DNA from: Terriglobus albidus | Lineage (GTDB): Bacteria > Acidobacteriota > Terriglobia > Terriglobales > Acidobacteriaceae | NCBI RefSeq assembly: GCF_025685425.1 | Contig: NZ_JAGTAS010000058.1 | Span: 310,001-374,000 of the forward strand | DNA: 64,000 bases | Direction of reading: 5' to 3' | In this document: piece after piece, positions 11,267-27,065 of the stretch | How positions within the stretch are numbered: position 1 is the first letter of the stretch | How the letters are laid out: each line of letters begins with the position of its first letter | Program-made: the position numbers and the translations under genes | Notes under the pieces: generated by a model | Database searches by the model: none | The model's input: the letters and a program-made list of their open reading frames with translations, nothing else | Told to the model about the DNA's origin: nothing

Positions 11267-14200
11267 TTAGAACTGCGCAATCACCCAGGTTGATGCTCCA
11301 CCGGCGTCAATGCCCCATGCTGTCTGACCGCTTTCAAATCCAGGATTTGACAAGACGTTGGTTCCGCCCGCAACGCCCATGAAGCAATCATCGACGACAA
11401 GCGTGCCGGCTCCCGAATAGGAATTCTTGAGTTGGAACCTCAAGCCTGTGTAGCTTCCCGTGCTGAAGGCCGGGGTTGAGCATTGCGTCCATATGGAAGT
11501 CGCCGTGCACTTTACAGTAGCCAGGTTAGTGGAGTTGTACATCGCATCCAGTTCCACCGAACCCGATCCTTTGATCCACACACTGGCGACATAGGTTTGA
11601 TTGGCCGCCACCGGCATCTGCTGATGCGTAGAGGTCCAGTTAGGGCTGGACGGTAACGTAGCCTGCAGGCACCAGAGTCCGGTTCGGCAATTACCGCTTC
11701 CCGAATAGGCGCCAATGCTGAGAAGTGTCGTAAGCGGATTTTGATAATAATCCACCCCGCCACTATTAGAGACAGCCATGCCTGCTCCCGCTGCTGGAGA
11801 TCCCGGCTGCAAGGCATATCCTGCGGGGCATGGTTGCGGACCGTTTGCCAATGATGCCGTCCAGATGCAGGTGCCGCCATTGCCAGCACTGCTAAGCAAA
11901 GGGTCCCCATACACGGGACTTGATTCGCTGCCGGAAGAGGCCCACGAAGATGCGGTGGTATAGGTTGTTCCATTCCATATCCACTGTGGGTTGTTGGGAG
12001 TGTAGTAGAGATTGTTGCTGAAGGTTAGCCCGCTGATCGAATTCACGTCACGGACAAACTCCACATTATTGGCGGAGTTTGGATTCGCCATATAGCAGAT
12101 GTTGTTCTCGATCATCGACCCCGATGCAAATGTGCCCGAGCCATTCCACATCGCGAGGTAGAAGCACGCACTTGGATCTGTCGAGATAGACGATTGCGCG
12201 ATATTGCTGAGGAAGGTATTGCCGTAGACATAAACCGGATTCGGTGCAGGATTCGGTGTCAGGCCAAAGAGCCCTCCGATCCCCCTCACCAGGTCATCGT
12301 TCTCAGAGATGTTGTAGCGGAATGTGTTTGGTCCCCACGTGGTGCCACTGGGATTGCCGTCATAGCCCAGTATTCCCGCGCCGCCATTGTGATGGGTGTA
12401 GTTGTATTGAACGGTTGAATTGGTTGTGCCCCCATCAAGATCGATGCCGTCCCAATCGCATCCGGTTGTGAATGCAGGCAACGGCTGTACGTTGTAGACC
12501 TCGTTGTACTGGACGAAGATGTTGTTCGCGTTATAGGTCTCAATGCCACTCGTTCCACCGCATGTGGTGACGTTTGCCCCGATGTCATGGATGAGGTTGT
12601 ATTGGATGATTGCACCATTCATGCCATTCGCGTTCAAGCCGGCGTAAGGGGCTGGGCTTCCCAGGTTATAAACGGTGTTGCCCTGCATCAGAACATTCGT
12701 GATATTCCGCCCATATCCCCACCCGGCCACTCCGGCTCCGTCGGTAGAAGTCGGATCGGTTCCGTGGAGCGTATTGTTCAGAATCTGGATGTTGTTGAGA
12801 GGACCATTGTTCCCATTCAGAGCATAGCCAAGGATCCAGATCTCTCCTCCGCTCTGCCCGCCGGTTGTTGCAAATCCCATTACCTCAGAGTTCTTGACAG
12901 TCATTCCCTGGGTTGCCCAACTGACGGAACTGTTTTGCAACAGAATGCCCCAGTTCGTGGTCGCTCCATTCACGACCTCCAAACCGTCCACGGTGAATCC
13001 ATTAATGTTGTCCCCGATGATCGCGGCGGTATTCTTCCCGGAACAACTGGACGAAGACTGAATAGTAGCCACTCCTCCACCATAGGAGGTCACGGTAAAG
13101 GGATTTTGCACCGATGAAGTCGGCACGATGGTTCTGGTGAAGACCAGGCATCCAACGAAGGTCTGGCCTCCCTCGAAGGAAACCGTGCTTCCTTCCGGAT
13201 AGGTAAAGCTATTCACCTTGGCAATCGTCTGCCATGGGGTTGAAGGCGTTGTGCCGTCGTTGCTGTCGTTCCCATTCGGAGAGACATAATACTGCAGTTG
13301 CTGCTGGCTGAAGGTCGCCGCAAATGCCTCGTTCGATGGGCTTGAAGTACCGGCGCCATTCACCGCCTGCACGAGGTAGTAGTAGGTTGTAGCATGCGTC
13401 AGGCCGGTATCTGTATAGGGAGAGCCAGCAATTCCCTGCGCGACGAGATTCGACGGGGACGGAGTAAATCCACTCGTCAGGCTGCGATAGATGTTATAGC
13501 TCCAGGCGTTTGCAGATGGCGACCATGTCAGGCTTACCGTGCTGACGGAGGTCGGAGTCGCAGTCAGGCCCGTTGGTGTTCCAGGAGGTGTCGTGCTTCC
13601 GCCGCCGCTCCCTCCACCTGTACCCGAGTATGCACCAATACTCGGAGGACTGGTCAGCGCGCTTTGATAATAGTCCACGCCTCCATTACCAGTGATAGCA
13701 GCTCCCGCCCCCAATCCTGGAGAACCGGATTGAAGTGCATACGCCGAAGGACACGGCTGCGGCCCATTGCCCAACAGAGGAGACCAACTGCAGGTCCCGC
13801 CGTTACCGCCGTTGCTAAACAGAGGATTACCATACACCGGACTCGTTTCCAGGCCGGTCGCCGACCACGCCGCGATAGTAGTGTAAGACGTACCCCCCCA
13901 ACGCCAGGTGGGGCTTGTTCCCGCGTAATACAGATTGTTCTGCAGCGTCATCCCACTCTGGGCGTAGGGGTTGTAATAAAAGTTCCCACTTCTGCCGTAC
14001 TGATCATGGTTATTCAGGTAGCAGATGTTGTCTGCGATCAACGAGCCGCTCGCCCAGGTTCCACCACCATCTCCAAAGTTGAAACAGGCACTGGAACTCG
14101 TCTTCGTATTCTGTGAGATGTTGCTGAAGAATGTATTGCCATAGATAGAGAGGGCGTTTGCCGGCGGTCCTGGTACGACATCAAAGAGAGCGCCCTGAGC

Positions 14201-15286
14201 CCTAGCCCAGTCGTCGTTCTCCGAGATGTTGTAGCGATAGATATTTGGCCCCCACGTGTATCCGCTTGGTTTGGAGGTATAGGCGAGAAACCCGCTGCCG
14301 GCATTGTGATGCGTGTAGTTGTATTCGACCAGAGAGTTGGTCGTGCCCCCGTCCAGGTCGATCGCGTCCCAATCACACCCTTTGGTAAAGCCTGGCGACG
14401 GCTGAACGTTGTAGACCTCGTTGTAGCGGATCGTGATGTTATTCGAGGTATAGGCTTCAATACCGGAGGTTCCACCGCACGAGGTCACATTCGCGCCGAT
14501 GTCATGCAGAATGTTGTATTGGATCAGGCCGCCGTTCCAGCCATCCGCATCGATCCCCGCCCAGACGGTCGAGGCCGGCATGCCGTTGTTGTAGATCGTG
14601 TTTCCCTGAACCAGAACATTGGTGATGTTCTTTCCGTAGCCCCATCCATTGATGCCACCTCCATCGGCGGAAGTCACCGTGGCGCCATGTAACGAATTGT
14701 TCAGAATCTGGATGTTGTTCAGCGGACCATTGTTGCCGTTCAGAGCATATCCAAGAATCCAGATCTCTCCGCCGTTCGAACTGCCGCTCACCGGCGCAAA
14801 TCCGGTCACCTCGGAGTTTTCAATGACAATCGTCTGGGTCGGTGAATTCGATGTCTGGTTTTCCAGCAGGATTCCATAGATAGTGCTGCTTCCATTCACT
14901 ACCTTTAATCCGTTGAAGTAGAAACCGCTCACGTTATCGATGGTGACGGCAGCTCCCGTCGTTCCGGAGCAGTTGGACTGGATCGTCGCAACGCCCGTTC
15001 CATAGGAGTTCACGGTAAACGGCGTCGAGGCTGACGACGCAGGCACATTCGTCGTATTGAAGACGAGACATCCCGTAAAGGTCTGCCCTCCCTGGAACGA
15101 GACCGTGCTTCCCTGCGGAAAGACAAAGCTGTTGACCTTGCTGATCGACTGCCACGGGGTAGCGGTCGACGTTCCATTGTTGCTGTCACTGCCATTCGGC
15201 GAAACGTAGTACGTTTGCGCTGCCAGAGATGACACAAAAATCATAATCATCGCCGCAAGCCAAAAGACCTGCATGGGCTTTTTCAT
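11267..15286 (-). CDS. Giant secreted protein with duplicated right-handed beta-helix, FN3 and C-terminal jelly-roll-like domain
   Basis: 1339 residues with a Sec signal peptide (FWLAAMIMIFVSSLAAQ). Two copies of the same ~530-residue module, each starting YYVSPNGSDSN(N/D)GT, lie at about 25-555 and 668-1195. Both contain the parallel beta-helix ladder (NNIQILNN, ITNVL.QGNT, IQYN..HDIGANVT, IRYNEVYNVQP, CDWD.IDLDGGTTNS) and a closing segment G.YALQ.GSP..GAG. A fibronectin type III domain (about 570-660) links them. The last ~140 residues (VWIKGSGSVELDAMY, VVDDCFMG, NPGFESGQ) resemble a carbohydrate-binding jelly roll. The DID.D-like acidic residues may be catalytic as in polysaccharide lyases, but no family can be assigned. 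It stands alone. A poly-saccharide-degrading or adhesive role at the cell surface is inferred. Confidence 0.82.
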   Translation of the reverse strand: MKKPMQVFWLAAMIMIFVSSLAAQTYYVSPNGSDSNNGTSTATPWQSISKVNSFVFPQGSTVSFQGGQTFTGCLVFNTTNVPASSASTPFTVNSYGTGVATIQSNCSGTTGAAVTIDNVSGFYFNGLKVVNGSSTIYGILLENQTSNSPTQTIVIENSEVTGFAPVSGSSNGGEIWILGYALNGNNGPLNNIQILNNSLHGATVTSADGGGINGWGYGKNITNVLVQGNTIYNNGMPASTVWAGIDADGWNGGLIQYNILHDIGANVTSCGGTSGIEAYTSNNITIRYNEVYNVQPSPGFTKGCDWDAIDLDGGTTNSLVEYNYTHHNAGSGFLAYTSKPSGYTWGPNIYRYNISENDDWARAQGALFDVVPGPPANALSIYGNTFFSNISQNTKTSSSACFNFGDGGGTWASGSLIADNICYLNNHDQYGRSGNFYYNPYAQSGMTLQNNLYYAGTSPTWRWGGTSYTTIAAWSATGLETSPVYGNPLFSNGGNGGTCSWSPLLGNGPQPCPSAYALQSGSPGLGAGAAITGNGGVDYYQSALTSPPSIGAYSGTGGGSGGGSTTPPGTPTGLTATPTSVSTVSLTWSPSANAWSYNIYRSLTSGFTPSPSNLVAQGIAGSPYTDTGLTHATTYYYLVQAVNGAGTSSPSNEAFAATFSQQQLQYYVSPNGNDSNDGTTPSTPWQTIAKVNSFTYPEGSTVSFEGGQTFVGCLVFTRTIVPTSSVQNPFTVTSYGGGVATIQSSSSCSGKNTAAIIGDNINGFTVDGLEVVNGATTNWGILLQNSSVSWATQGMTVKNSEVMGFATTGGQSGGEIWILGYALNGNNGPLNNIQILNNTLHGTDPTSTDGAGVAGWGYGRNITNVLMQGNTVYNLGSPAPYAGLNANGMNGAIIQYNLIHDIGANVTTCGGTSGIETYNANNIFVQYNEVYNVQPLPAFTTGCDWDGIDLDGGTTNSTVQYNYTHHNGGAGILGYDGNPSGTTWGPNTFRYNISENDDLVRGIGGLFGLTPNPAPNPVYVYGNTFLSNIAQSSISTDPSACFYLAMWNGSGTFASGSMIENNICYMANPNSANNVEFVRDVNSISGLTFSNNLYYTPNNPQWIWNGTTYTTASSWASSGSESSPVYGDPLLSSAGNGGTCIWTASLANGPQPCPAGYALQPGSPAAGAGMAVSNSGGVDYYQNPLTTLLSIGAYSGSGNCRTGLWCLQATLPSSPNWTSTHQQMPVAANQTYVASVWIKGSGSVELDAMYNSTNLATVKCTATSIWTQCSTPAFSTGSYTGLRFQLKNSYSGAGTLVVDDCFMGVAGGTNVLSNPGFESGQTAWGIDAGGASTWVIAQF

Positions 15287-15485: not shown

Positions 15486-15601
15486 TAGAGCATTTTCCCT
15501 GTAGGTGTCGTCCAGAGCATTCGCATCTATGGGCGTTTTCCGTAATGAAAACGCCGCTGCACTCCTCTTCCGGAAAACCCAGTAACAGGGAAAATGCGAT
15601 A
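15486..15601 (+). repeat. Palindromic element, copy C (tandem with D)
   Basis: Full 116-bp copy in the orientation here called forward: TAGAGCATTTTCCCTGT at the left, the hairpin GGCGTTTTC-CGTAAT-GAAAACGCC in the centre. Its right end should read GCTCTA but is GCGATA. That last TA is also the first TA of copy D. The first ~94 bases are identical to copy D. Confidence 0.9.
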
Positions 15602-15715
15602 GAGCATTTTCCCTGTAGGTGTCGTCCAGAGCATTCGCATCTATGGGCGTTTTCCGTAATGAAAACGCCGCTGCACTCCTCTTCCGGAAAACCCAACAAG
15701 CGGGAAGATGCTCTA
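15600..15715 (+). repeat. Palindromic element, copy D (tandem with C)
   Basis: Second tandem copy, sharing the TA at 15600-15601 with copy C and ending in an intact GCTCTA. It differs from C only in the last ~20 bases (CCCAACAAGCGGGAAGATGCTC). One frame is open through both copies, reading about 38 residues per unit with the sequence HLWAFSVMKTPLHSS in each. The pair lies upstream of the beta-helix gene (15286, minus). Confidence 0.9.
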
Positions 15716-23351: not shown

Positions 23352-26300
23352 TTAGAACCGATACTTCAAGGCAAGCTGGATGCTGCGTGGATTCACCGAA
23401 GTAGCGCTAACCTGCCCTCCGGCTGTCGCATCGATCGTAGCATTGGGAGCCGCGAAGCTGGTTGTGTTCGACACGTTGAAGAATTCCGCACGGAACGACA
23501 GAATGCTCTCTCCTGGAAGGGAGAAGTTCTTGAAGATCGATGCGTCATACTGTCGGAACAAGTCACTGCGTTGCGTATTGGCTCTCACATTGCCATAGGT
23601 TCCTGTTGGAGCGACCACGTAGCGCGAGGTATCGAACCACTTTGTCAACGACTTCTTGAAGCTCGGCGAACCTCCCGCAGGATTCAGATTCGGTCTCTGG
23701 CTGCCAACACCGGTCTTTGCCACGTCGCCTGAGACGACCGGTGTAAATGGCGTTCCACTGCGCAGGATTACGATTCCCTGCACCTGCCATCCTCCGATGA
23801 AAGAATCGACAAACCCATTGGCATTACTCAGCATCTTTCTCCCACGCCCAAAGGGGAGCTCATACTGCCCGCTCATGGCCAGGTTATGAGGCACGTCATA
23901 AGCAGCGAGCGCATACTCGTACGCGGAGTTCCCGCCGAGCGCGGAAGCCTGGTTGTACTGCAATGTCTTCGAATAGGTATAAGCGCCAAGGAGGCTAAAG
24001 CCGCCATGGAAGCGGTGCTCGTACTTGGTCTGCAGTGAGTCATAGTGATTGGTGACATCCTGCGTGTTGTAGGTGATATTCCCCCATGGCTGATACGGCC
24101 GGCGCGACTGCACCGAGCTTGTGCCAGTGGTTGGAGGGGGAACGTTGATATCGTTCGTCCCATTCAGATGGACGCCGCGATTGCCCACATAACCGATCTC
24201 CAGAACATCGTGGTTTGAAAACTGCCGCTGAATGTTGAGGCTGTAATGGATGTTTGTCCCCATGTTCAGATGGAGGCGGGTTGGCGACAGCGTGGGATTC
24301 GCCGTCGTCGAACCAAGCTTCGAACCCTGGTAGTAGTCGGCAAGCGTTTTTACAGTTGGCCCGGAGAATTGCGTCTGAGCCACCGTCTCCGACAAGCGGA
24401 AAGGCAACGTGTTCAGGTTCACCCGGCCGCTGGTTCCCTCCGGCTCGTAGAACATTCCGAATCCCGCACGAATCACGGTCTTGTTGTCCAGGGAATAGGC
24501 TAGGCCGATTCTTGGGCCAAATTGGGTTTTGTCAGTGTAGGTAGCGTTCCTCGGAAGCCTGGCTTGTGCGGTGGTTTGAATGAACTGACCGAAGAATTGA
24601 TAGGCCGTAGGAGCCGCAGGCTGCGCCGTCAGATCCGGTACCGTGCCGTCACCAGAGACGATGATCGGCTTCGACTGAGATGGATCGAAGGTTCCGACCT
24701 GGCCTTTGTAACCATCCAGCCAGGGAGTGTACTCATAACGCAAGCCAAGATTCAACGTCAGTTTTCCCAGGCGTATGTCATCCTGCACATAGAACTGCTT
24801 CGACCAAACCTGTCCTCCGAAGTTGACCGCAGGAAAGGCCCGGCTTCCCGTATTCGGCAGGCCCAGCAAAAAGTCGGCATAGGCGTCGCCACTGGCGCTC
24901 CCACTGAAACCGAAGGAGCCGGCATAGGTCTGGCTGTCATAGCCCAGCCACTGATAGTAGCGAACCAGCGTGCCCATCTTGATGGACTGCTTCCCTTTCA
25001 GGATGGTGAAGTTATCGCTGATCTCCCATGCCTTGCGGTCCTGCGACTTCGGGCGCTGGTCAAAGGTCGATCCCTGAATCGGAGAGTATCCGCTGAAGCT
25101 ATAGTCGGGAAACGAGCTCTTCCCATCCCTCAGCGTCTCACTCAAACCGGCAATGCCAAACTTTGCATTGAAATCCGGGCCTTGCAGAAACGCCTGCAGC
25201 CGCACATGACTGGGAAGGAAGTGCGAGCGAATCTCGTTCACCATGGTCGACCCGATATTCGTGATCAGCCCCGCCGCAATGTCCTGTCCGATCGAGGTGA
25301 GATTGGCGGTTCCCAGCGCCGGCGCATTGTTCGGATCGACCTCGTGGTTGGTCACATACACCCACCGGGCGAAGAGTCGGTTCCTGGCCGTCAGCTGATG
25401 ATCAAGCCGAACGATGTACTGATCGAAGTCGATTGCCTGCGAGGGTACAGCGGCGAAGGTTCCCGAAGAGGTGTTCTGACGCGGGATGTACTGCTGAATG
25501 GCCAGGGCCTGCGAGGAAATACGATTCGTGGGAATCGTATTGTTCGTAAACGCCACTCCGGTCTGCGGATCCCGAATTGTCTTTGTACCGAAATTCCCAG
25601 AGCGCTGCGCATCCGAAGGAACAATCATATTGACCACCAGACCATTACGCAGGCGCTGCCCTTCATAGTTGACGAAAAAGAAAGTGCGATCCCTGCCACT
25701 GTAAAACTTCGGGATGAAGAGCGGTCCACCAAGCGAGGCTCCAAATTGATTGCGCTTCAGGATTGCCCGGGTAGGAGAAAAGTAGTTGCGGGCATCGAGC
25801 TTCTCATTTCGCAGGAACTCAAATAGTCCACCGTGAAAACGATTGGTGCCGGACTTGACCGTAGCGTTGAAGAACGCGCCGCCACGGTTATATTCAGCGG
25901 AGTACGGGCTCTGCTGTACCGAAAACTCCTGCAGCGCATCGATGGAGGTCTGAATGAAGGTTCCGCCCTGGTGCTGCTCGCTCACATCGTTGCCATCCAG
26001 CAGAAATGAGGTGGCACTACCGCGGATTCCGCTGATTACGTTTCCATTCACAACCTCCGGACGGATCGCGAGCGAATTTCCGGTGGGCGGCAGCAAAGCT
26101 GCTCCCGGGGTTAGGGATGCCAGGCGATAGAATCCTCGTCCATTGATGGGAAGCTCCGTCAATTGCTTATTGGTGATCACCTGTCCGACGGTTGCGCTGT
26201 CGGTGCTCAGCAGCGGAGCCGTTGTGCTCACCTCAATCGTCTCGCTGGTCGAGCCGACCTTCAGGCTGAAGTCCTGGCGGACAATCTGCGCGACCTGCAC

Positions 26301-26723
26301 CTCGATCCGCTGGGTTACAGCGCCTTCAAAACCTTGTGCAGCGACTTTTACCGTGTAGTTTCCCGCCACAACCGACGTAATCACATAGTCGCCGTTCTCG
26401 TCGGTCTTCGCTGTCTGTGTGATGTTGGTGTCAAGATTTGTGGCGCTGATAGAAGCACCCGTTACAGCACTTCCCTGCGGATCGACTACGTGACCAACGA
26501 AGCGTCCCTGGTCTACCTGCCCCAGTGCGGACACGACCATGAAGAGAGACATAAATGCGGCGCTTCCTAGAGCCTTTTTCCTGATGCTGGGCATGCCGGC
26601 AGAGGAGTGCAGCGGCGTTTTCATTGCGGAAAACGCCCATAGATAGGAAATCCCTACTCTACACCTACAGGAAAAACACTCTAGCGACCTGGCAATTTTC
26701 GCGAGCAGCATATCTCGAACCAT
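23352..26723 (-). CDS. Oar-like TonB-dependent receptor with element inserted in its signal peptide
   Basis: 1123 residues. After the signal region comes a carboxypeptidase-regulatory-like Ig domain (GRFVGHVVDPQGSAVTGASISATNLDTN... about 71-160), a plug (ITNKQLTELPINGRGFYRLASLTPGA, LLDGNDVSEQ) and a large barrel ending LALKYRF. ATG 26723 is chosen for its strong GGGGGGAAG site. A 116-bp palindromic element sits in frame within the signal-peptide coding part: without it, the start would read MVRDMLLAKIARS-LGSAAFMSLFMVVSALGQ, a normal signal peptide. With it, either a ~69-residue leader is made or translation starts inside the element at ATG 26594, giving MPSIRKKALGSAAFMSL. Promoter motifs match the GH39 operon, so co-regulated uptake of the same substrate is likely. 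Confidence 0.9.
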   Translation of the reverse strand: MVRDMLLAKIARSLECFSCRCRVGISYLWAFSAMKTPLHSSAGMPSIRKKALGSAAFMSLFMVVSALGQVDQGRFVGHVVDPQGSAVTGASISATNLDTNITQTAKTDENGDYVITSVVAGNYTVKVAAQGFEGAVTQRIEVQVAQIVRQDFSLKVGSTSETIEVSTTAPLLSTDSATVGQVITNKQLTELPINGRGFYRLASLTPGAALLPPTGNSLAIRPEVVNGNVISGIRGSATSFLLDGNDVSEQHQGGTFIQTSIDALQEFSVQQSPYSAEYNRGGAFFNATVKSGTNRFHGGLFEFLRNEKLDARNYFSPTRAILKRNQFGASLGGPLFIPKFYSGRDRTFFFVNYEGQRLRNGLVVNMIVPSDAQRSGNFGTKTIRDPQTGVAFTNNTIPTNRISSQALAIQQYIPRQNTSSGTFAAVPSQAIDFDQYIVRLDHQLTARNRLFARWVYVTNHEVDPNNAPALGTANLTSIGQDIAAGLITNIGSTMVNEIRSHFLPSHVRLQAFLQGPDFNAKFGIAGLSETLRDGKSSFPDYSFSGYSPIQGSTFDQRPKSQDRKAWEISDNFTILKGKQSIKMGTLVRYYQWLGYDSQTYAGSFGFSGSASGDAYADFLLGLPNTGSRAFPAVNFGGQVWSKQFYVQDDIRLGKLTLNLGLRYEYTPWLDGYKGQVGTFDPSQSKPIIVSGDGTVPDLTAQPAAPTAYQFFGQFIQTTAQARLPRNATYTDKTQFGPRIGLAYSLDNKTVIRAGFGMFYEPEGTSGRVNLNTLPFRLSETVAQTQFSGPTVKTLADYYQGSKLGSTTANPTLSPTRLHLNMGTNIHYSLNIQRQFSNHDVLEIGYVGNRGVHLNGTNDINVPPPTTGTSSVQSRRPYQPWGNITYNTQDVTNHYDSLQTKYEHRFHGGFSLLGAYTYSKTLQYNQASALGGNSAYEYALAAYDVPHNLAMSGQYELPFGRGRKMLSNANGFVDSFIGGWQVQGIVILRSGTPFTPVVSGDVAKTGVGSQRPNLNPAGGSPSFKKSLTKWFDTSRYVVAPTGTYGNVRANTQRSDLFRQYDASIFKNFSLPGESILSFRAEFFNVSNTTSFAAPNATIDATAGGQVSATSVNPRSIQLALKYRF
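26568..26683 (-). repeat. Palindromic element, copy F, inside a coding region
   Basis: 116 bp with decayed terminal repeats (TAGAGTGTTTTTCCTGT on the minus strand; AAAGGCTCTA at the other end) and an intact central hairpin. In the gene's direction it is in the forward orientation and adds 114 net bases (38 codons) without a stop. Removing it with one TA restores the codons TCG-CTA-GGA. A change from ATACCC, the usual sequence, to ATGCCC creates a possible start codon within it. Confidence 0.9.
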
Positions 26724-26737
26724 CACTTCCCCCCTGA

Positions 26738-26815
26738 ATGCGAGGTACAGGCTTTCAAATCCGCCTCTCCTCAAAATCGGGTCAAAAGGTACTACCTTTA
26801 AGAAAAACGTGTCAA
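26738..26815 (-). promoter_or_regulatory. Receptor promoter with the same operator as the GH39 operon
   Basis: Minus-strand TTGACA (26815-26810), 13 bases, then GGTAGTACC (26796-26788), then GTACCTCGCAT (26748-26738) ending 15 bases before the ATG. Both the 9-bp near-palindrome and the 11-base leader motif are shared with the GH39 promoter at 22352-22404. Confidence 0.6.
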
Positions 26816-27065
26816 CGGAAGTTTTCAAAGGTCCGCGTCTCCAAGGTGAAGTTGAGAGTCTGAATGCCGGGTTCCAGTGGCTTTCCTGTTACCACGGCTC
26901 GCAAAAATAAAAGAATTTCAGGGGCCTTACCGCCATCTTCCAGCCGTTTGGGATGGATTGCCTGACATCCCTTTCCGGATGGGCTCACCCGTGCAATCTC
27001 GCCGATCTCTTTTTGATTGGTAGGCCCATTCGCCATGGCCGCAATCGTCAGGAGCAAGGGATTGC
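26816..27065. other. Intergenic stretch without a recognised gene
   Basis: This 250-bp part of the divergent gap between the receptor and GH51 genes has an open minus-strand frame of 104 codons (26812-27126) that I cannot match to a family. It lacks a ribosome site and runs over the receptor's -35 element. I regard it as probably non-coding, perhaps with decayed coding sequence. Confidence 0.35.

Follow-up and report, generated by a model that had tools for sequence, protein, structure and literature searches.

The window, a stretch of 64,000 nucleotides from the soil acidobacterium Terriglobus albidus, carries on its minus strand the gene of a TonB-dependent/Oar-like receptor with OMP_b-brl_4 and CarboxypepD_reg domains. 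Its open reading frame spans positions 23352-26828, and the gene as read from the native start through an inserted palindromic element at its 5' end occupies 23352..26723. The native ATG (26721..26723) is preceded by the Shine-Dalgarno-like sequence GGGGGGAAG (26726..26734), and both are also present in three orthologues without the element. The element itself (26568..26683, on the minus strand like all features described here) consists of 114 bp and a duplicated TA target (TA at 26682-26683 and 26568-26569), the span from TA to TA amounting to 116 nt, i.e., 114 plus one TA. Its terminal inverted repeats, TAGAGTGTTTTTCCTG on the left (element positions 1-16; 26668..26683) and CAGGAAAAAGGCTCTA on the right (element positions 101-116; 26568..26583), make up a terminal helix of 16 pairs, and the central hairpin GGCGTTTTC-CGCAAT-GAAAACGCC (element positions 47-70; 26614..26637) contains a helix of nine pairs. 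Two further ATG codons, neither of them with a Shine-Dalgarno sequence, lie inside the element: one in the central hairpin (26622..26624), which also belongs to the family consensus, and a rare one (26592..26594) present in 2 of 150 copies. Shortly upstream of the hydrophobic core of the signal peptide, close to where the insert ends, Arg-Lys-Lys is encoded (AGG AAA AAG; 26574..26582) where the consensus has Arg-Glu-Asn. Elsewhere in the window, stretches of 300 and 214 nt at 12265-12863 and 14182-14786 are repeated about 1.9 kb apart with 73-74% identity and probably represent a duplicated gene.

The original prediction had placed a TA-flanked palindromic element in frame within the signal peptide of this receptor and had expected its removal to restore TCG-CTA-GGA. 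The coordinates and the anatomy hold, and the alignment with element-free orthologous receptors that it had called for reveals exactly this empty site, GCCAGGTCG-CTA-GGAAG, in the congeners G002, G015, and G012 (95-96% amino acid identity), all of which lack the 114 bases. Without them, the signal peptide reads MVRDMLLAKIARS-L-GSAAFMSLFMVVSALGQ. As judged from these alignments, the insertion in the window is real, precise, and in frame. That the receptor gene is decaying, with the insert as a harmless scar, is hardly credible, since nothing beyond the insert itself speaks for decay, and 1123 codons are open from the native start, with nearly full-length matches to both Pfam domains. The mature part differs from that of G002 with a pS of 0.46 and a pN of 0.02 (pN/pS about 0.05), a pattern by which it is considered to be under strong purifying selection.

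A family of TA-flanked palindromic elements

At least 249 left ends with up to two mismatches occur in the 6.1-Mb T. albidus genome, as compared with none for a reversed control pattern, which argues against a chance origin of the family. A covariance model yielded at least 150 matches each in this genome and in G002, G015, and G012; among the rest of the 19 genomes of the genus, two gave three matches and one match, respectively, and 13 gave none. Matches were also obtained in 13 of 299 genomes drawn from the class, 12 of these 13 belonging to the same taxonomic family. The 116-nt consensus starts with TAGAGC and ends with GCTCTA. A length of 116 nt including both TAs is found in 94 of 150 copies of the T. 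albidus genome, TA at both ends in 84 of 150, and in comparisons with empty sites of other species the flanks are exactly 2 nt apart in 22 of 28 cases. The family thus consists of short elements that have terminal inverted repeats but no transposase gene, duplicates its target site, occurs in high copy number, and is mobile, as is evident from filled versus empty sites among congeners. The terminal inverted repeats, the TA duplication at empty sites, and the copy number identify it as a TA-targeted element of the MITE type. Arrays of two to four copies are present at 17 of 184 sampled sites of the T. albidus genome, and two copies lie head to tail at 15486-15715 in the window.

A partner transposase with matching ends was not found in the genome, which was searched with PF13358 only. 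This search returned one full-domain match of the IS630 type (L237), which has no element end within six mismatches, and one partial match at a contig end (L238), which has one end at five mismatches. Element ends paired at a distance of 400-3500 bp were seen for 30 of 150 unpaired left ends in the sampled sequence and were taken for neighbouring copies, not each of which was checked. At positions 1400-2500 of L237, an insertion sequence of the IS630 type with ends near TTGATTCCTGC apparently splits another gene.

Both helices show compensatory changes among 23 chosen copies from two genera: 7 of the 16 terminal pairs and 4 of the 9 central pairs are changed on both sides (11 of 25 together), with 95.9% of the cells paired in the terminal helix and 96.5% in the two helices combined. 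None of 500 shuffled controls was as high on four of five measures of covariation, and 38 of 500 were on the fifth. The palindrome itself therefore appears to be maintained, as would be expected if the element acted as RNA, for example as a hairpin in the 5' coding region which tunes translation or mRNA stability, the open frame being a mere condition of tolerance. This explanation is considered quite improbable, because covariation is expected of any palindromic mobile element, 114 of 130 element sites lie outside genes according to a home-made gene caller, and the pN/pS values of in-frame inserts, which in two of three frames are lower than those of other shared copies (see below), point to constraint at the protein level. 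An RNA role is nevertheless compatible with the reading preferred here, that of an element translated as part of the signal peptide. Genes called around the sites end at a median distance of 17.5 nt (98 cases) and start at a median distance of 61 nt (125 cases), and no RNA family of Rfam matched at its gathering score in the 64 kb window.

With respect to coding, three of the six reading frames are usually free of stops: of 150 copies, 120 are open in r2, 112 in r1, and 110 in f2, which is the frame of the window insert, as opposed to only 5 to 19 for the other three. In-frame entry is therefore easy, as the net length of 114 bp also corresponds to 38 codons. The original prediction had pointed to 38 extra codons read without a stop; this is correct but ordinary in the frame concerned, which is open in 110 of the 150 best-scoring copies, and as a property of the family it cannot be regarded as an adaptation of the window copy. 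The r1 frame begins with Arg-Ala-Phe-Ser-Leu-Leu-Leu-Gly, and the f2 frame ends with Met-Lys-Thr...Arg-Glu/Lys-Asn-Ala-Leu. Related elements from another genus (G322; L403-L427) share similar ends and compensatory stem changes and occur as 114-115-nt forms with net lengths of 112-113 bp. Among 30 examined copies, 5 measure 116 nt, 18 measure 115 nt, and 7 measure 114 nt, so that most of them would shift the frame. No in-frame N-terminal insertion was seen among 30 of the 33 matches listed for this genome, one of the 33 being the other strand of a copy, with a coding model that had been trained on the T. albidus genome.

In-frame insertions in predicted signal peptides

A survey of 350 sampled sites in four species, of which 48 are common to more than one species and hence not independent, yielded 15 genes with a verified in-frame insertion, which in 11 of them lies in the n-region of the signal peptide. 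The sample comprises 184 sites in the T. albidus genome (213 of 215 copies found, with two at edges dropped) and 166 in relatives, 69 of them in G002 and 97 in two MAGs, which seem to be the same as G012 and G015, given identical residues at the L149 insert. The signal peptides are predicted throughout, on the basis of visual inspection and a crude hydropathy rule. By a crude count, n-regions make up 830 of 164543 codons in 450 called genes, 104 of which are signal-peptide-like. At ten of the 11 signal-peptide loci at least one orthologue lacks the element, and at the eleventh the relatives carry a fragment of it.

In addition to the window receptor, whose site is empty in three relatives, the n-region insertions affect a second receptor of the same kind (L165, empty in two), a SAM-hydroxide adenosyltransferase (L086, empty in two), a TPR protein (L153, empty in three), and an exported protein (V327, filled in G002 and empty in three). 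Several are shared between species: a GH127 enzyme with a Tat signal (L156) is filled in T. albidus and G015 and empty in G002, a receptor-like protein (T319) is filled in G002 and G015 and empty in T. albidus, and one lipoprotein (S166) is filled in G012 and G015 and empty in G002. Another lipoprotein (P315) is filled in G002 and G012 and carries a fragment in G015 and T. albidus. At two loci, a GH43-like protein (L149, below the Pfam cut-off) and an Amidase_3 protein (L007), the element is in frame in all four species and absent only from the outgroup G017, where the amidase shows the empty site ATGCCCTGGACTAAAACC. The remaining four insertions lie just behind a signal peptide (B200), at the N-terminus of a membrane transporter (E319), in a MacB-like periplasmic domain (L151), and in the middle of a protein without a Pfam match (L152). 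The names are based on Pfam for L165, L086, L156, L149 (below cut-off), L153, L007, and L151 and on our own reading for T319, S166, P315, V327, B200, and E319; the signal-peptide assignments are likewise our reading, except for L156, which matches the Pfam TAT_signal family. At L007 (1490-1501) the element landed in a stop codon, turning the TAA of the upstream gene (in the joined reading) into TAG, so that both the stop of the upstream gene and the frame of the next one are kept; similar cases occur elsewhere.

The candidates were picked by eye and then compared with orthologues, and this hand selection may favour signal peptides. From 29 rows in two candidate listings, 14 were not counted (L273, L063, L270, L073, L260, L069, L070, and a minus-frame row of L007 in the first; L340, L311, L318, L207, and two rows of L216 in the second). 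Twelve of these were set aside by eye without orthologue comparison, mostly because the start seemed to lie downstream of the element; for the other two, no orthologue (L063) or no alignment of the upstream region (L270) was obtained. The rows L193 and L217 belong to orthologues of L149, L203 and L315 represent one locus, and L007, L151, and L152 entered the count from outside the two listings. The home-made gene caller missed the window site, and some insertions in the middle of genes may have escaped detection; a wider screen of 51 rows gave no further same-frame open case, L151 also falling below its threshold. At L260 (1501-1616), a copy with divergent ends adjoins the C-terminal portion of a receptor-like ORF that lacks an in-frame coding signal upstream, possibly a disrupted gene.

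Possible coding constraint and trimming, and the likely translation start

None of 11 cross-species comparisons of shared in-frame inserts shifts the frame (three each for L149 and L007, one each for L156, T319, S166, P315, and B200), as compared with 25 of 39 other shared copies differing by a non-multiple of three (Fisher p 2.4e-4), where the lengths behind the latter rest on partly extrapolated element ends and pairs within one locus are not independent, as also applies to the pN/pS values. With a stricter length measure, 10 of 24 other shared copies are shifted and 15 are unmeasurable, versus 0 of 1 with 3 unmeasurable for the in-frame loci. The amidase insert has gained 6 nt in G015 and lost 3 nt in G012 with its frame intact, and two of four in-frame pairs contain gaps of non-triplet length whose net difference is still a multiple of three. 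The pN/pS of the inserts is 0.35 against 0.73 in other shared copies for frame r1 (Fisher p 0.03) and 0.52 against 0.97 for frame f2 (Fisher p 0.10, not significant); for frame r2, a single comparison gave 1.10 against a control of 1.06, without visible constraint. Taken together, the comparisons constitute moderate evidence that shared inserts are under weak coding constraint; the non-triplet gaps, control ratios ranging from 0.67 to 1.06 over the six frames, and the dependence between pairs of one locus speak against it.

The lipoprotein P315 suggests a further step. A full element follows ATG CGC AT in G002 and G012, and only one element end, fused to the rest of the gene, is left in G015 (ATGCGCAT-TAGAGCATTTTCCCTGTTGCTGG-CTCTGACC) and in T. 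albidus (ATGCGCAT-TCGAGCATTTTCCCTGTTGCTGGGTGTTCC...). The fusion point in G015 is CTGTTGCTGG, a sequence shared by element and gene, and the element accounts for about half of the residues preceding the cysteine in the two peptides that result, MRIRAFSLLLALTAGLSGC and MRIRAFSLLLGVPLTVGLSGC. These fragments are read as deletions after insertion, and with two species showing two different end points they would represent an end state of trimming. For S166 in T. albidus, a smaller remnant of the element is possible.

The window copy itself is found in one species only. It deviates from the consensus at 13 positions without acquiring a stop, its divergence of 11.2% exceeds the median of 6.9% (index 141 of 150 copies sorted by divergence), and 10 of its 38 residues are unlike the consensus translation, the last ones reading MPSIRKKAL instead of IPSNRENAL. 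Occurrence in one species and this number of altered residues give no sign of constraint on this copy. A special coding optimisation of it was also considered and rejected, given these 10 altered residues and the presence of Arg-Lys-Lys in another copy (L012). For the family, the original suggestion of a possible use of the element as coding sequence is supported by frame retention, lower pN/pS in two of three frames, and the signal-peptide fragment; it extends to the window copy only by analogy.

The exchange of ATACCC for ATGCCC noted in the original prediction is real and rare, G occurring there in 2 of 150 copies, and a product started at 26594 would have a textbook signal peptide of 25 residues, MPSIRKKALGSAAFMSLFMVVSALG, with Arg-Lys-Lys in place of Arg-Glu-Asn. 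The start may thus have moved into the element, to 26594 (or 26624), leaving the native start and the upstream part as a dead leader; the native n-region indeed shows three nonsynonymous differences from each of the three orthologues and none among these, as if constraint were relaxed. We regard this as unlikely, and the proposed adoption of the new ATG found no support in the comparison of start sites. The calculated anti-Shine-Dalgarno duplex amounts to -10.2 kcal/mol at the native start and -4.8 at a second native ATG (26711), against -2.5 at 26624 and -1.7 at 26594, and sister inserts without Met in the translated element (L007, L156, S166) keep their frame; that of L007 has no in-frame ATG inside, but a TTG. 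Moreover, Glu-to-Lys is common in the family (20 of 150 copies), and the Arg-Lys-Lys form recurs in L012. From these features, 26723 appears to be the likeliest start of the receptor. Four signal-peptide loci whose frame ends with RENAL beside the hydrophobic core (the window receptor, L149, L153, and L086) carry Glu-to-Lys, as does one of the two species at T319, against family values of 20/150 and 26/150, which is suggestive. Because of the three nonsynonymous differences in the native n-region, the Arg-Lys-Lys of the element may have taken over the function of the n-region, although very few sites bear on this.

We therefore favour as probable that a MITE in the receptor signal peptide is translated through from the retained native start, the n-region being a tolerated landing site. 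A non-autonomous, TA-targeted palindromic element has entered a CTA codon at its TA, where the n-region borders on the hydrophobic core. The receptor stayed in frame, because a net gain of 114 bp adds 38 whole codons and the reading frame concerned normally has no stops. Ribosomes would most likely still start at the ATG at 26723 with its Shine-Dalgarno sequence and read through the element. The signal peptide of the resulting precursor would be about 68 residues long, and signal peptidase should remove it as a whole, so that the mature receptor would be unchanged. Selection would clear most insertions in genes and spare those in n-regions, which may be why the same family is found in frame at ten other verified signal-peptide loci; perhaps export signals tolerate the element because they are cut off. 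As the comparisons between species suggest, some inserts would then be kept under weak coding constraint, and fragments could become part of a working signal peptide. More tentatively, n-regions may represent a systematic safe harbour for a mobile palindrome of coding length, and the element a portable signal-peptide part which replaces part of the native targeting sequence after insertion and trimming, a possibility we regard as rather less likely than not.

Implications and relation to known elements

Orthologues with and without the insert show where a mobile element of coding length enters genes harmlessly, in many cases a segment of the protein that is later discarded. The contribution of palindromic elements to proteins becomes testable, because a fresh insert, an insert shared between species, and a trimmed fragment all exist in living relatives. 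In practical terms, gene callers may misplace the starts of element-bearing genes, and unusually long n-regions can stem from transposons.

The likeness to Rickettsia palindromic elements (RPE) drawn in the original prediction is supported as an analogy. As described in the relevant parts of the sources, RPE are short palindromic repeats that occupy both intergenic positions and in-frame positions within protein genes (PMC10969869, PMC2229807), as is the case here, with in-frame insertions that keep the gene open at 15 verified loci. RPE are reported there from unrelated metabolic genes, whereas 11 of the 15 verified in-frame copies described here lie in signal-peptide n-regions. TA ends characterize the present family; among RPE, the first published one has none, but at least one other does, according to the passage concerned (PMC2229807). 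The likeness to RPE is one of description. The RUP element of pneumococcus, presented in the same passage as an IS630-type MITE of 107 bp (PMC2229807), shares the short length, the terminal inverted repeats, and the TA target with the present element; RUP has IS630-Spn1 with similar ends, whereas the one full-domain transposase of the IS630 type detected here shows no end match within six mismatches. REP sequences are outlined in the pertinent section as palindromes of 20-40 bp with a GTAG or CGTC tag (PMC3733652), and an identity with them was rejected, as the 116-nt consensus begins with TAGAGC and ends with GCTCTA.

In-frame fusions of MITEs with genes, or overlaps with them, are described in the relevant sections on the Coxiella QMITE, where the copies overlap 3' ends or lie in the middle of ORFs for hypothetical proteins (PMC5896051), a text in which the term signal peptide is absent. 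Among the open-licence PMC texts listed for Acidobacteria with MITE or palindromic elements, or for such elements with signal peptides, none beyond two Delihas papers was recognised as bearing on signal peptides. A close parallel is the Yersinia RU-2 repeat, a MITE-type sequence with an open frame which, in the sections concerned, lies within the predicted signal sequences of YPO1552 and also YPO2495 (Delihas 2007, PMC2759123); RU-1f likewise forms part of a predicted signal sequence in YE2643 (PMC2759123). These enterobacterial cases, as presented there, concern putative proteins compared with those of other genera with unrelated signal sequences (PMC2759123), unlike the 11 loci described here, which involve conserved genes in four species with element-free orthologues, frame retention, and a trimmed fragment. 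As far as these source passages go, in-frame MITE fusions as such are already known from RPE, RU, and QMITE, including predicted signal peptides of Yersinia, whereas the recurrence, the element-free orthologues, the retention of the frame, and the trimmed fragment are new.
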